Shown: one piece after another, positions 44,512 to 50,463 of the stretch | How positions within the stretch are numbered: position 1 is the stretch's first letter | How the letters are laid out: every line of letters starts with the position of its first letter | Position numbers and translations under genes: made by a program | NCBI RefSeq assembly: GCF_900177345.1 | Contig: NZ_FWZT01000002.1 | Span: 248,001-312,000 of the forward strand | Reading direction: 5' to 3' | Length of the DNA stretch: 64,000 nt | Source: Pseudobacteriovorax antillogorgiicola | Lineage (GTDB): Bacteria; Bdellovibrionota_B; Oligoflexia; Oligoflexales; Oligoflexaceae | The notes under the pieces: generated by a model | Seen by the model: only the letters and a program-made list of their open reading frames with translations | Databases searched by the model: none | What the model was told of the DNA's origin: nothing

Positions 44512-45939
44512 CTATATCTGTAAGTCGTATTTTTTACGTCTTGAGTCGAACGCCGACCGACTGATATCCAAAAGACTAATAGCATCAGCTATAGTATTCG
44601 TTTTTCGGACAACGTGCTCAAGAATACGCTTGTCACAGTTATTTAAGGCCTCTTCGTAACTTAAATCTCCGCTAGCGACACGTTGCCCAATCCTATCTAA
44701 ATCCGATCCACTATGAGTGACAATACCCGCAGGATCTCGCATCAATTTTAGGTCTGGAAGGTGCTTGCTACTAACAGGTTCGTTTGAAAACTCTGCTTCC
44801 ATGATCATGACCTTTAGTATCTGGAAAAGCATTCTTATATTTCCTTGCCAATAATACTCGCCACACTTCGCTGAAATATCCTCTAGCTGGCTCTCAGATA
44901 TCTCCTTTTTTCTTTTTGCAAAGAAAATAGCGATCAGATCTTTCAAATCCTCTCGTCTCTCTCTAAGTGGGGACAGTTCAATTTGGGCTCCCATCAGTCT
45001 TGAAGCAAGATCCAGTATAATAAGCCCCTTAGCGACAGCATCATCGAGACTAGAAGTAGTTGCTGCAACAAGCTGAAATCGAGAATGAAGTGTTTCGGTA
45101 GAGCCTACCCGCTGATAGTGGCCATCGTTTAGGACTCTTAGTAGATCCCGTTGACTCGTCTTTGGCAAATAGTGGATTTCATCGAGAAACAAAATACCTC
45201 CGTTGGCTTGTCCGACCAAACCAACGGTAGTATCGTTTGCACCGGTAAAAGCGCCCTTCTGGTGGCCAAATAGCTGAGACTGAGCGAGATCAGAACGGAA
45301 GTGAGAACAGTTGACAGCAACAAATGGGATATCCCCCTCTAACACAACCCTTTCTCTGTGTAGCAGCATCGCAACTTCTTCTTTCCCAGTTCCAGTTTCG
45401 CCACTAAGAACAAGAGGGATATCACGATTTTGAGAAAGGGCTTTGATTTTGTTCCGCGTAGAGTCTCGCAGTACGATTCCATCTGGATATTTTGCCCTTA
45501 AATCTTCCGGTATTTGATGGTTTCTCGTGAGACTACTGTTCGAGCCTTGAAGTGCTTTACGGCTTCGGGCTAGGCTAACCGCTATCTGTATCTCGTCCCA
45601 ATTTTTGACTGGCTTTTTAATGAACTGAAGTGCGCCATAAGCTATTGCTCTATCGAATATGGCAACATCGGGGTCTTTCGACATTGCAAGCGGCAGTACA
45701 TTAGGGAATAAGCACTTCACATCCTGGAGTAAATCCAAGCCTCTAGGCTTCAGTTCATCACTCTCAGTCAAGTGGATATCAGTCAGAAGAAAGGTATATC
45801 GCTTCTGTCGCAAACTTGCCATTGCGTCTTTGACAGTAAGAACGCCCTTTGCTTCATGTCCAGAAGCGACAATCTTTGAAAGAGTATCAGTTAGCTCGTA
45901 CTTATTGTCATCTACAACTAGAAAGTTACTTTTCTCCAA
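44512..45939 (-). CDS. Sigma-54-dependent response regulator (NtrC family)
   Basis: 475 residues. Receiver with phospho-acceptor Asp54 (LLTDIHL) and Lys in FIKKP; AAA domain with Walker A GETGTGKEE, the sigma-54 contact loop GAFTGA, and DEIHYLP in Walker B; C-terminal Fis-type helix-turn-helix (NTIADAISLLDISRSAFDSRR). It would activate a sigma-54 promoter when phosphorylated by the kinase encoded just upstream (14-base overlap). Last gene of the operon starting near 50314. Confidence 0.93.
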   Translation of the reverse strand: MEKSNFLVVDDNKYELTDTLSKIVASGHEAKGVLTVKDAMASLRQKRYTFLLTDIHLTESDELKPRGLDLLQDVKCLFPNVLPLAMSKDPDVAIFDRAIAYGALQFIKKPVKNWDEIQIAVSLARSRKALQGSNSSLTRNHQIPEDLRAKYPDGIVLRDSTRNKIKALSQNRDIPLVLSGETGTGKEEVAMLLHRERVVLEGDIPFVAVNCSHFRSDLAQSQLFGHQKGAFTGANDTTVGLVGQANGGILFLDEIHYLPKTSQRDLLRVLNDGHYQRVGSTETLHSRFQLVAATTSSLDDAVAKGLIILDLASRLMGAQIELSPLRERREDLKDLIAIFFAKRKKEISESQLEDISAKCGEYYWQGNIRMLFQILKVMIMEAEFSNEPVSSKHLPDLKLMRDPAGIVTHSGSDLDRIGQRVASGDLSYEEALNNCDKRILEHVVRKTNTIADAISLLDISRSAFDSRRKKYDLQI

Positions 45940-47599
45940 TTTTAATCCTCTCTAAGGCTGCCTTCTTACGTAGCTTCAGACCAAAAATGATATCTTTCAT
46001 ATCCCTTTTCAAATCCAAAGTCATCTGAATGGTTGTTCCAAATGTCTGGCATAGAAGATCTTCATCATCTGTAAGTAAGATTGAATGGGCTTCAGGGTCG
46101 AAGTCACCATAGAAACAATCCAATGGTGTCTTGGTAGATTCAAGCTCTCGCCGCAAGTCATCCTTGAATTTCGAGTTTGAGGTAAAAACACATATTTTCG
46201 GATCGTTTGCGAAGACGCATCGATCTTCCTGATTGTCACTCATTTTTGGGGCTTCCTCAACCAATGGGTATTCATTACAATCTTTCCTCGCAGAGTTGAT
46301 CAAGACTAGTTTAAAAACTGACATATCCTCGGATCGGTGATAACTGAGTATGCCTTCATGTTGGTCAGCTATTTTTTTGACATAGGTTAGACCTAGACCA
46401 GTTCCATTAGTTTTTTTTGAGGTGAATCCGATTTTTATGACGTCCTCGATACTTGCATTTCCTAGGCCTGGGCCATCGTCACTGACTACAATCTCTAGAT
46501 CTCTGTCGTTAGCGACTCCGATCACTACTGAAACCCTCTCCGTAGCTGCTTCGATAGCATTTCGAGCAAGGTTGATAATCGCTCGTTCGACTTTAAGCGG
46601 ATCGATGTCCAGAATATAGCTGGCTATTTCATGCTGCTTTTCAAAATTGAAATTAACGTTTTGGTCTTGCGCATAAGCAAAAATTTCTGATTCTAGGGAC
46701 TCAATATAGCTGTAGTCGGTTTCAATTCTCCGAATGATCTGGTGCTCATCCTTTTTGAAGCCTTCTATCATGAATTGAATTTTTCGCAGAGATCGTAGAA
46801 CTCGTTGATCAGGAGATACTTTTTTCAACGTCTGCTCAATAATAGAAATCGGACTACTCAAATCGTGGGCAAGCATTCTTACGGTTTGAGATATCGCTTC
46901 TTTCTTGGCTAGCTCTTTTGCAAGTTCGTTTTTACTTTCAATCTCTAAAAGAAGATCCGAAATTTTTCTGCGGAGCCAAATGATCTCATCGAACTTGGAG
47001 ACATACTCTAAGTTCAGGTTTTTGTATTGAAGAATGTTTGATAGGCCTTTAACATCGTCACTAAGATCATCCGTAATCGATTTGATTCTGCCAAGTCCAA
47101 ATACAAAAATAGCAAAGTTCGCAAACACGATTATCAAGCAAGGGAAAAACCACTTCACTAAATCAATTCGATTTCTAAGCTGGAGATAGCCAACAATCTT
47201 TTCATTGTAAACAAGGATCTTGTTGCTAACTAATATAATGCCGTTTCTTGAGAGTCTCAAACTGTAGTTCGATTGTAAGAAATCTTGAGCTTCTCCTGAG
47301 CTAAATATGATTGCCTTGTTGCTGCTGAAAAGCGAAATATTCGTGGTGAAGTCATTCTGAAAAGACGATAGGAGATTTCTGATTTGAAATAGATCTCCTG
47401 TGGCAACCATCAACGCCAGAGATTTTTCACTACTTGAGGACAGAAACGAAGAGCGATCTATGACGTCTTTTAGTGAAAGAAAGCCATAGATAAGGGTGAA
47501 TGTGGTCAGTTGAAATATAAGAGACCACTTGCCAATCCTTAGAAAGTAGTCCCGCAAGACTCTTGTTATACCATTATTTATGGGACTTTTAACTATCAC
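45926..47599 (-). CDS. Membrane sensor histidine kinase with C-terminal extension
   Basis: 557 residues. Two membrane helices (~24-44 and ~151-170) flank a ~105-residue periplasmic sensor; HAMP-like linker; His245 in MLAHDLSSP; N-box NLARNAIEAA; G-boxes SDDGPGLG and GTGLGL. The final ~100 residues are an unusual tail with Asp-rich YGDFDPEAHSILLTDDEDL that may be a degenerate receiver. Start GTG overlaps the stop of the HExxH gene (GTGA), so translation is coupled. Likely partner of the regulator downstream and of the binding protein upstream. Confidence 0.9.
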   Translation of the reverse strand: MIVKSPINNGITRVLRDYFLRIGKWSLIFQLTTFTLIYGFLSLKDVIDRSSFLSSSSEKSLALMVATGDLFQIRNLLSSFQNDFTTNISLFSSNKAIIFSSGEAQDFLQSNYSLRLSRNGIILVSNKILVYNEKIVGYLQLRNRIDLVKWFFPCLIIVFANFAIFVFGLGRIKSITDDLSDDVKGLSNILQYKNLNLEYVSKFDEIIWLRRKISDLLLEIESKNELAKELAKKEAISQTVRMLAHDLSSPISIIEQTLKKVSPDQRVLRSLRKIQFMIEGFKKDEHQIIRRIETDYSYIESLESEIFAYAQDQNVNFNFEKQHEIASYILDIDPLKVERAIINLARNAIEAATERVSVVIGVANDRDLEIVVSDDGPGLGNASIEDVIKIGFTSKKTNGTGLGLTYVKKIADQHEGILSYHRSEDMSVFKLVLINSARKDCNEYPLVEEAPKMSDNQEDRCVFANDPKICVFTSNSKFKDDLRRELESTKTPLDCFYGDFDPEAHSILLTDDEDLLCQTFGTTIQMTLDLKRDMKDIIFGLKLRKKAALERIKIGEK

Positions 47600-48477
47600 G
47601 CCACCAAGACCATTTCTCTAAGTATTTCATCACAAAATTTGGTCCTCGACGTTCTCAACAAGCCTTCAATGTTTATTTTAAGTTTATTTCGATACTCATT
47701 CTGCAGAGTCTCTAGGAAGGCTCTGCGCGCACCTACTTCACCTCTAGCAAGGGAAAATGCAGCTATGCTCATGTACATTAAGGCTACAGCCGAATGCATG
47801 GCTGCGACCACGGGTCGTTGAACTTCCCTGATTCCTGAATAAGCTGTCTGACTAGGATCGGTAAAAAGGGCATGACCAGTGTTATATATCATGAGCAGGT
47901 TATGTGCTAATTCGTGAGCCAAACTTATATTTAGCAGTAAATCTGGATAAGGGTTATCATACTCCACACTTGTAAAAATCGTTCCAATGAAGTTATGATC
48001 TGTGAAGGAATTGCCGCACTCTACTCCTTGGTGAGAGCAGATGGGTACAATATTTACAATCAAGTTCTCAAATAGAATCTTCATCCATTCTGGCCAAAAA
48101 TCAATCTGACTGATGCCTTTTTCAAAGATTGAAATCGATTGTTTTCCATTCGACTCAATTTGTTCATTGATTTTGATATTGTAGGAGAAGGGGAGCACAG
48201 TTTTTCCGAAATCTGTTACAAAAAATTTGGAGTAGCTATTCAAAAACCTTCTGTCGGTTGAAAAACGTTCTTGGCATGACTCAAGCGGTTTCATGTTTCC
48301 TTTAAGAACCTCTAAGGCCAATATTGGAGAGGCCATCCAAGGTTGGTAGCCATCTTCCAAAAACTCATACTTCCCGAGTCGGCTCAAGCAGCTTTTCCGT
48401 AACTGTTGGCTACACTGAACTCCATGAACGGCGCCTTGGTTTCCGACTAGCCATCTAAATCTTTCGTTTCGACTCAT
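47596..48477 (-). CDS. aKG-HExxH-type peptide beta-hydroxylase-like protein
   Basis: 293 residues, no signal peptide or membrane helix, so cytoplasmic. Residues 165-240 match the HExxH domain (TIGR04267-like) of alpha-ketoglutarate/Fe(II) peptide beta-hydroxylases: a strand FIGTIFTSVEYD, then LAHELAHN with His188-Glu189 and His192, then REVQRPVVAAMHSAV, where Arg221 would bind ketoglutarate and His228 is the conserved partner. HELAH alone could also indicate a metalloprotease, but the RPxxxxxH continuation and its spacing fit the hydroxylase family better. No radical SAM enzyme is adjacent. ATG 48477 with GAGGT is chosen; the frame extends 39 codons upstream into the binding-protein gene. Confidence 0.62.
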   Translation of the reverse strand: MSRNERFRWLVGNQGAVHGVQCSQQLRKSCLSRLGKYEFLEDGYQPWMASPILALEVLKGNMKPLESCQERFSTDRRFLNSYSKFFVTDFGKTVLPFSYNIKINEQIESNGKQSISIFEKGISQIDFWPEWMKILFENLIVNIVPICSHQGVECGNSFTDHNFIGTIFTSVEYDNPYPDLLLNISLAHELAHNLLMIYNTGHALFTDPSQTAYSGIREVQRPVVAAMHSAVALMYMSIAAFSLARGEVGARRAFLETLQNEYRNKLKINIEGLLRTSRTKFCDEILREMVLVA

Positions 48478-49972
48478 GTATCTTGACCTCGGAGATGTTG
48501 AAGTTCCAAGCTGGCTCGTTCTTGCTACCAATAGCCTCGATGTGGTTTTTTTTGTAGTAAATGAATTTCCTTTGATAGAGTGGTAGCACCACATAGTTCT
48601 CTCTCAGAATCTCTGACAAACGATGAATAAGCTGCACCTTCTTCTCAAGGTCTTCAACTGCCTCTGCCTCAGCAAAAACCTTCTCATATTGCTCATTGGT
48701 TGGCATCGTGACGTGGGAATTACCGGGAAGATAGTGAGCAAATGTAGTAAGAGGGTAACTTTCTACATATTTGCCATATAAAACCAAGGGGTATTTTTCT
48801 GAGAGATTGTTGGTGTTCATATCTTCAGTTAACTCAATTTTTACCTTCAAACCAGCTTCCACAAGGCTATCGCGTATAAATCTGTAGTACTTCCCAGGGT
48901 CTGACCCAGGAGCGCCATGACAAAGTAGGATATGCTCTCGTTCCCTTACAGCTTTGGGAAGGTTGGCAACAATTTCCTTGGCTCGATTGAGGTTGTATTG
49001 ATTGGACTTCTCTTTGTAACCATAACTGAAATTTGGAATGACTTGATCGATTGGTGTGCGAGATCCCGATGCTGTTAGAGTACTATATTTATCAATTGCG
49101 TAGGTGACAGCTTTTCTGAAATTAATATCCGCCGCAACGCCAGCCCGATGATTAAACTCAAGAAATTGAATTGCGAAAGGCAGTTTGCTTTGAATGCGTC
49201 GGTATTTGCCGGGGTTTTTTGTTAGGAAGTCATACATCTTAGAAATCCCACCGCCAAATGCGACATCAACATCGTTTTCAAACCCATATTTTTCGCTGAA
49301 TAGGATTACTTTTGATGGGCCATCCCCGTAAACTTTCTTTAGGTGAACCGTACTCGAATTAGGGTCTGACCAGGAAACTCGATAGGGTCCGCTGCCTATT
49401 GGGATTGATTTGAACGTATAGTGATCACTCTTAAATTCGCTAATGGGACCCAGAGCTGGGAGCCGCGAGCCAAGGGAATACAAGAATCTAGAGTGACCAC
49501 TTGCGAGGTAGACCTCTAATGATTTGTTATTAGTGACTCGAATACCATCTACCATTCCTGTTTTAAAGGACATTCCAGGCTTTAGCTTAGAAACCCCTTT
49601 TATGAAACCTAGGGGAACCCTATCTAAAGCAGTATCTGCAGTGGAGATAAATGGTTTCACGAGCACATACTCAAAGTCATACGCTGAGATGGATTCGCCA
49701 TTGGAATATTTTCTAGATGTATCGATCTCAAAGGTATACTTTTTCTTCTCATAGTCCCACTCCCATGACTTGATATAGCCAGGCCTTATGTGAAGTGAGG
49801 TATCGAAGTAAAGGGCCTGACCGTGAACGGCAGTATTAAACGTTGACCTTGCATAGCCGTCGTTAAAATTAAGCCAAGGCTTGATCCGGCTGTCGGAAAT
49901 TTGGAGCTTCAACTCACTCTTAGCGTACAATGAGATTGAACTGAACAAAAATACTAGTGTCAGGTATTTCAT
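48455..49972 (-). CDS. Orphan oligopeptide-binding protein (SBP family 5)
   Basis: 505 residues with signal peptide MKYLTLVFLFSSISLYA. Family 5 features: YEKKKYTFEID near the start with a following 'NGESISAYDFEYVLV' region, GSGPYRV in the middle, and FNHRAGVAADINFRKAVTYAIDK. These proteins bind peptides or small ligands in the periplasm. No permease or ATPase gene is adjacent, so a sensory role with the neighbouring kinase is inferred. 15 bases after the small-peptide gene; overlaps the hydroxylase by 23 bases. Confidence 0.85.
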   Translation of the reverse strand: MKYLTLVFLFSSISLYAKSELKLQISDSRIKPWLNFNDGYARSTFNTAVHGQALYFDTSLHIRPGYIKSWEWDYEKKKYTFEIDTSRKYSNGESISAYDFEYVLVKPFISTADTALDRVPLGFIKGVSKLKPGMSFKTGMVDGIRVTNNKSLEVYLASGHSRFLYSLGSRLPALGPISEFKSDHYTFKSIPIGSGPYRVSWSDPNSSTVHLKKVYGDGPSKVILFSEKYGFENDVDVAFGGGISKMYDFLTKNPGKYRRIQSKLPFAIQFLEFNHRAGVAADINFRKAVTYAIDKYSTLTASGSRTPIDQVIPNFSYGYKEKSNQYNLNRAKEIVANLPKAVREREHILLCHGAPGSDPGKYYRFIRDSLVEAGLKVKIELTEDMNTNNLSEKYPLVLYGKYVESYPLTTFAHYLPGNSHVTMPTNEQYEKVFAEAEAVEDLEKKVQLIHRLSEILRENYVVLPLYQRKFIYYKKNHIEAIGSKNEPAWNFNISEVKIHESKRKI

Positions 49973-49987
49973 GGTCTTTGCCTTCAG

Positions 49988-50314
49988 TTATTTCTCAATA
50001 CCAATATTGTTATCCCTAACAGCTGAATGCATACCAGACAAGTCAGGTGGCAAGCAAAAATTCGTGGTGTTCTCTTCTATGCTGTCAAGAATGAATTCTA
50101 ATCCAGCAATTTCATAGTTTTCCCACAAAAAGGCATCGAAATCAAAGTCCTCTTGACCTTCACAAAGGTAGCAAATCATATCCTGCGCCAAGTTAGAAAG
50201 ATGCTCTTTCATGGTGGATTCATTTGTCTCGAAGTCTACCTCCGTATGACTTTGGCCGTGTGCTACAGAGTTCAAGCCAAGGGCTACTAGGAACGCTTTT
50301 GACATATCCTTCAT
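49988..50314 (-). CDS. Small exported Cys-containing protein, candidate modified peptide
   Basis: 108 residues. A short signal peptide (MKDMSKAFLVALGLNSVAHG, cut near AHG-Q) precedes an acidic body with CYLC and a later Cys (NFCLPPDLSG), and ends in GMHSAVRDNNIGIEK with Asp, Asn and His residues. GAAGGAG is 6 bases before ATG. No homologue recognised. As first gene of the operon containing the binding protein, hydroxylase and two-component pair, it may be the substrate, the signal, or an accessory periplasmic factor. A secreted peptide modified in the cytoplasm before export would fit, but this is hypothesis. Confidence 0.6.
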   Translation of the reverse strand: MKDMSKAFLVALGLNSVAHGQSHTEVDFETNESTMKEHLSNLAQDMICYLCEGQEDFDFDAFLWENYEIAGLEFILDSIEENTTNFCLPPDLSGMHSAVRDNNIGIEK

Positions 50315-50424: not shown

Positions 50425-50463
50425 AACAATAAACGGGCCAAACTATAGGAATCCGTATCCTAT
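50425..50463 (-). promoter_or_regulatory. Candidate sigma-54 promoter and adjoining dyad
   Basis: On the minus strand TGGCCC-N5-TTGTT (50425-50440) has the spacing of a -24/-12 promoter; the -24 box matches 5 of 6, the -12 box lacks the usual GC. A 6-bp dyad, ATAGGA-N7-TCCTAT (50445-50463), adjoins it. It lies about 110 bases before the small-peptide gene, whose operon encodes a sigma-54 activator. Confidence 0.4.

Follow-up and report, generated by a model that had tools for sequence, protein, structure and literature searches.

A recurrent operon of Bdellovibrionota as a candidate autoinducing system for sensing a modified peptide

A five-gene operon

What might a bacterium do with an operon that encodes a small exported peptide, an enzyme of a peptide-hydroxylating family, an oligopeptide-binding protein without a transporter, a histidine kinase and a sigma-54 regulator? 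The question is raised by a locus of Pseudobacteriovorax antillogorgiicola (GCF_900177345.1; genome of 7.3 Mb in 68 contigs), which we analysed within a stretch of 64,000 nt, the window, taken from contig NZ_FWZT01000002.1 (248,001-312,000, forward strand). Its five genes occupy window positions 44512 to 50314 and are all read from the minus strand, in the order peptide, solute-binding protein (SBP), HExxH protein, kinase and, last, regulator; a gap of 15 bp separates the peptide gene from the SBP gene, and the remaining three junctions overlap, by 23 bp (SBP/HExxH), 4 bp (HExxH/kinase) and 14 bp (kinase/regulator). An earlier note on this DNA had described just such a co-directional set joined by a 15-base gap or overlaps, and coordinates and domains (Pfam, NCBIfam) are as it claimed. 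Scans of the window for sigma-70 promoters and terminators gave scores not above those of shuffles.

We consider it somewhat likelier than even, with a probability of roughly 0.55, that the operon is an autoinducing system for sensing a modified peptide. The small peptide would be made in the cytoplasm, where an Fe/alpha-ketoglutarate (aKG) HExxH enzyme would oxidise its C-terminal part, either hydroxylating it or trimming it oxidatively so that an amide is left; the peptide would then be exported, by Sec in the type found in the window and by an MFS-type exporter in types that lack a leader. Comparison of sequences across related loci supports the conservation of the gene set, the enzyme family, the pairing of enzyme and peptide, the export route and sigma-54 control. 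The earlier note, which had read the locus along these lines, is borne out in part: its gene set and enzyme family stand, its sigma-54 control has support from comparison, and its emphasis on cysteine is not supported.

The HExxH enzyme

The putative aKG-HExxH-type peptide hydroxylase (47596..48477, minus strand) is a cytoplasmic protein of 293 aa; the listed open reading frame, which begins at an upstream ATG, would give 332 aa, whereas alignment favours 48477 as the start. Two motifs stand out: HELAH (residues 188-192; 47902..47916, minus), predicted to bind metal, and RPxxxxxH (residues 221-228; 47794..47817, minus), which aligns with that of ChlH (8s5f). H188, E189 and H192 of the first and R221, P222 and H228 of the second are invariant in 33 homologues. 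The NCBIfam model for aKG-HExxH-type peptide beta-hydroxylases, TIGR04267 (IPR026337), matches 33/33 aligned enzymes (best E = 1.3e-14) and the window protein at E = 4e-9, with a score of 36.7 bits where the cut-off is 40 bits. A sequence profile reaches ChlH 8s5f at E = 8e-19, and both motifs line up in that match. Modelled with AlphaFold2 (pLDDT 86.4, pTM 0.89), the window protein shows the zincin-like fold of ChlB-HExxH (8s5f; E = 1.6e-10, TM 0.64), its top fold match in the PDB; SjiH (22ob; E = 4e-6) is the second, with no others significant. By sequence and by model, the protein belongs with the alpha-ketoglutarate-dependent peptide hydroxylases, as the earlier note had proposed, and Fe(II)/aKG oxidation is its predicted reaction. 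Characterised members of the family hydroxylate Asp, His, Phe, Gln or Pro, or cleave the backbone oxidatively and leave an amide (PMC12636437; PMC13060819).

An HExxH motif would also suit a zinc protease, with the peptide or the SBP as its substrate, and one family member, PflC, has been seen to hydrolyse in the absence of a leader (PMC12636437). We nevertheless hold this explanation to be very improbable, as every significant fold match is an aKG oxygenase, TIGR04267 recognises all of the aligned enzymes and RPxxxxxH never varies among them. Zinc-protease homologues, which the earlier note had named as evidence against its reading, did not turn up among the significant fold or profile matches (Pfam, NCBIfam, sequence profile, PDB fold search); profile and fold both lead to ChlH-type aKG oxygenases.

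Longer HExxH homologues (410-530 aa) of many Bdellovibrionota genomes, with housekeeping-like neighbours, were excluded from the set. In loci L107-L114 this longer form, there mostly of 410-480 aa, recurrently adjoins GcvT/YgfZ-like and acyltransferase-like genes (named by eye), and it apparently has a conserved role unrelated to the operon.

Conservation of the gene set

We inspected 51 loci found by the HExxH profile alone, nearly all from Bdellovibrionota and falling into 38 clusters at 50% identity. An SBP gene lies within about 450 bp of the enzyme in 46/51, a histidine kinase within 3.3 kb in 38/51 and a sigma-54 regulator within 3.3 kb in 25/51, counts in which several of the loci missing partners are cut by contig ends. 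Because 46 of the 51 loci, found by their enzyme, have an adjacent SBP gene, the gene set recurs far beyond chance, and it has been kept over deep divergence; the five genes that the earlier note would have sought together in related genomes do return as a set, in dozens of loci.

The window genome holds one HExxH gene of the TIGR04267-type family and one close SBP of the same kind. Searching by the enzyme alone, we found it in 5/58 genomes of the window's phylum grouping, as six genes that each adjoin an SBP gene. When a profile was run against 369 additional genomes, from the phylum of the Bdellovibrionales metagenome-assembled genome (MAG) G058, 95 had matches, many of which are the excluded longer homologue. 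In a Pseudobacteriovorax MAG of the same family as the window organism, peptide, SBP, HExxH and kinase genes are arranged as in the window, with overlaps and a gap of 11 bp. In a tree of 50 enzymes, the 23 rows of types 2/3 separate with full support from the 27 of type 1, among which is the window; SBP, kinase, regulator and peptide are present on both sides. The common order in type 1 is regulator-peptide-SBP-enzyme-kinase; in type 2 it is regulator-peptide-enzyme-SBP-kinase.

A second SBP-kinase locus of the Pseudobacteriovorax MAG (L025:7465-7707, minus) carries an 80-aa HExxH remnant in which the N- and C-terminal ends are fused and the catalytic core is missing, with the operon overlaps still kept.

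The small peptide

The peptide gene of the window (49988..50314, minus) encodes 108 aa, a putative precursor or signal with a signal-like N-terminal segment, MKDMSKAFLVALGLNSVAHG, and its position matches that of the exported peptides of related operons. Hydrophobicity predicts a Sec signal in residues 1-20 (50255..50314, minus), the cleavage site being placed by eye and the boundary therefore approximate. In every type-1 locus of the window's phylum grouping, and in L017, a short reading frame with a hydrophobic, signal-like start adjoins the enzyme or SBP gene. Under an automatic rule for reading frames, a peptide gene stands beside the enzyme in 30/37 HExxH loci and in 0/13 enzyme-free SBP loci (Fisher, about 2e-7), a test that is not fully independent because the 13 enzyme-free loci come from few genomes. 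The misses of the rule include a peptide below its threshold (L012) and peptides without a leader (L085, L089), and more peptide genes were found by hand. These reading frames are real genes under purifying selection, given dN/dS of about 0.06-0.18 in most close pairs. A short putative precursor gene beside a modifying enzyme is a pairing like that of ribosomally synthesised and post-translationally modified peptides (RiPPs), and sequence comparison supports it here. As to an operon conserved without its peptide, which the earlier note had set against its own reading, SBP-kinase pairs free of the peptide do exist, but these likewise have no HExxH gene, and HExxH loci nearly always have a peptide.

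Type-2 and type-3 peptides of distant loci share a core, roughly hNLDIFxxxxFSEARVD. It makes up the entire 24-aa leaderless peptide of L085 and L089 and, in L090 and L101, the C-terminal end of exported peptides 94-95 aa long (NVDISIFDSHQFAQARMDFVRQ); the peptide of L087 has two copies, and exported proteins of 262 and 295 aa in L098 and L104 have five near-identical ones. Within the core of some type-2/3 peptides occurs ARMD, the tetrapeptide that the HExxH enzymes PflC and PosC recognise as a trigger motif (PMC12636437), and PesO substrates carry R(V/T)DN (PMC13060819); since the motif is short, these likenesses are only suggestive. Type-1 peptides of the Bdellovibrio group often end in HSF. 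The window peptide is too divergent from its relatives to align, and a modified residue could not be picked out in it; profile comparison found nothing to join type-1 to type-2 peptides, or either to the window peptide, in a single family; a search of the peptides against NCBIfam returned no family. A simple comparison of identities gave no clear excess divergence in the peptide or the sensor domain. Cysteine, on which the earlier note had laid weight, is literally present in the window peptide yet missing from most relatives, and Cys-based chemistry was ruled out on the ground that Cys is not conserved among them.

Several peptides are longer, at 155-170 aa, with an alpha/beta segment predicted by a low-confidence model that has no PDB match. 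Such peptides look more like small proteins than like pheromones, and together with the position of the peptide gene next to those for SBP and kinase they fit a periplasmic partner or inhibitor of either protein, an internal brake or assembly factor whose affinity the HExxH modification would tune and which would carry no signal between cells. A folded partner, however, is not what 24-aa leaderless peptides with a dedicated transporter, or precursors with several cores, resemble, and we judge this role quite unlikely.

Export

Most peptides carry Sec-like signals. A precedent for precursors exported in this way exists in the bufferins, oxidised RiPPs whose Sec signals serve as leaders (PMC12452194). 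Peptides without a signal occur in L088, L093, L095, L100 and L106, where an MFS gene lies between enzyme and kinase, and in L085 and L089, where the kinase has an N-terminal extension with multiple transmembrane segments that a profile finds weakly MFS-like in L085 only. The MFS profile had no match in any signal-bearing locus. Confined in this way to loci with leaderless peptides, the MFS-type gene fits a role in export. On the enzyme tree, at least two changes of state between leaderless and signal-bearing are required. A transporter next to the SBP gene, which would have spoken for import, was likewise sought: no ABC permease was seen in these operons, and the MFS-type gene is the one found, solely in the leaderless loci.

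On plasmids we found three weak HExxH matches; in the two regions read, MFS genes stand beside the match and there is no SBP or kinase gene. In Staphylococcus warneri and Pantoea agglomerans (L117, L118) a plasmid HExxH gene is next to MFS transporter genes, an arrangement that recalls the leaderless loci.

Binding protein and kinase

The second gene of the operon encodes an orphan family-5 SBP of 505 aa with a signal sequence (48455..49972, minus; PF00496 SBP_bac_5, E = 4.7e-29). No ABC permease or ATPase gene is present in the window operon (reading frames, Pfam), and no ABC importer gene was seen among the operon reading frames of related loci, part of which were scanned with Pfam. What accompanies the SBP is a membrane sensor histidine kinase of 557 aa (45926..47599, minus; HATPase_c, 7.6e-15), in which His245 and Asp246 are conserved across 36 aligned kinases. 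In our preferred reading, autoinduction by the modified peptide, the SBP would capture the mature peptide in the periplasm and, once loaded, would alter the activity of the operon's kinase. We infer these steps from the layout of the operon and from the general ability of SBPs to stimulate receptors (PMC9602780); the oxidation of the peptide, its binding to the SBP and the contact of SBP with kinase are likewise proposed, and the cells addressed may be the producer itself or others.

SBP and kinase genes occur together in 36/51 HExxH loci, and enzyme-free SBP-kinase pairs also exist. Pairs that have neither enzyme nor peptide imply that the receptor can serve other ligands, and from them follows the main rival of autoinduction: SBP and kinase would sense a ligand from outside, for example prey-derived peptides, and the modified periplasmic peptide would be an output (metal binding, protection or attack) and not the signal. 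In some loci as many as six SBP genes stand in tandem ahead of a single kinase, which suggests many ligands and points the same way, as do the bufferins, modified peptides that leave by Sec and serve in protection (PMC12452194). Such a division of labour sits poorly, however, with enzyme and peptide genes encoded inside the receptor operon, with tight overlaps, in many lineages, and with precursors whose five near-identical cores resemble those of signals or RiPPs. We regard it as unlikely, if a serious contender.

The tandem arrays belong to loci of Silvanigrella-type genomes (L028, L029, L032), in which four to six family-5 SBP genes stand beside one kinase gene with no HExxH, peptide or permease gene. 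Near an SBP-kinase locus, three small reading frames (L030:14328-15007, plus) whose leaders end in Gly-Gly and whose VCGGxC tails are rich in Gly/Ala resemble double-glycine bacteriocin precursors.

Sigma-54 control

The last gene encodes an NtrC-type sigma-54 response regulator of 475 aa (44512..45939, minus; Sigma54_activat, E = 3.4e-45) with a visible GAFTGA motif, a receiver domain at 28.4 bits, just below the Pfam cut-off, and a putative DNA-binding HTH end; an rpoN gene was found in the genome. Autoinduction would be closed by phosphorylation of this regulator by the kinase and activation of the operon's own sigma-54 promoter. A (-24/-12)-like site, TGGCCCGTTTATTGTT, lies 126 bp upstream of the peptide start (50425..50440, minus), and its score of 13 is weak on its own because about 4.8% of random 300-nt stretches reach the threshold of 13 or more. 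Across related operons such sites precede the first gene in 19/38, against that 4.8% background; they are close to TGGCAC-N5-TTGC, some near-perfect, and mostly 18-72 bp from the start. Sites upstream of so many operons support the feedback step, and with it the earlier claim that the operon is turned on through sigma-54. The Silvanigrella-type operons have neither a linked sigma-54 regulator nor a sigma-54 site.

Relation to known systems

Several known systems share parts of this arrangement. In nisin-type autoinduced RiPP operons the modified peptide acts through NisRK, a two-component system, to induce the operon that encodes it; these are Gram-positive, however, and the kinase senses the peptide directly, with no binding protein and no sigma-54. 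Kinases of the LuxP/LuxQ type are paired, as here, with a periplasmic binding protein, but that receptor for AI-2 is like a sugar-binding protein, and neither peptide nor modification enzyme is involved. The SBP itself resembles orphan family-5 proteins of the OppA/DppA kind (Pfam SBP_bac_5), with a kinase gene here in place of ABC permease and ATPase genes. Closest on the enzyme side are the aKG-HExxH RiPP clusters (ChlH, PflC/PosC, PesO, BpmH), which share the family by profile and fold, both motifs and an enzyme beside a short precursor, with ARMD common to the PflA/PosA substrates and some type-2 peptides; unlike the operon, they make natural products, and we found none reported with an SBP, a kinase and a sigma-54 regulator. 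Bufferins, modified by MNIO enzymes, also have a cytoplasmic oxidative enzyme, and its precursor substrate has a Sec signal peptide for a leader, but they differ in enzyme family, Cys-based chemistry, a copper role and the lack of a reported SBP-kinase receptor.

A literature search made mostly among papers outside subscription returned no description of the five-gene set. Each part is of a known family, and what is likely new is the SBP as probable receptor, the HExxH oxygenase and the sigma-54 feedback in an autoinducing modified-peptide operon. More tentatively, and at slightly less than even odds, the operons may represent a class of Gram-negative peptide pheromone that has not been described before. 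HExxH enzymes would oxidise these ribosomal peptides, orphan oligopeptide-binding proteins would bind them after export, and dedicated kinases would read them out, with feedback through sigma-54; the class would be widespread in Bdellovibrionota, some genomes having several copies whose peptides differ. Signalling by peptides that have receptors of their own is, to our knowledge, familiar from Gram-positive bacteria but hardly known in Gram-negative ones, in which such a system, if real, would be unusual. The conserved set of enzyme, peptide, receptor and regulator offers a concrete, testable signalling candidate in a phylum rich in predatory bacteria, to which it could report on density, kin or the state of prey; it also provides a large group of HExxH oxygenases, so far uncharacterised, with putative substrates, and suggests what orphan oligopeptide-binding proteins may do in the absence of a transporter.

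Among 250 genomes of Flavobacteriaceae, the enzyme was found only in Aquimarina, with no SBP. In Aquimarina spongiae a 45-aa LGG-type precursor-like reading frame (L018:8458-8595, plus) lies directly upstream of the lone HExxH enzyme, which makes this locus likely to be a RiPP cluster that has no receptor.
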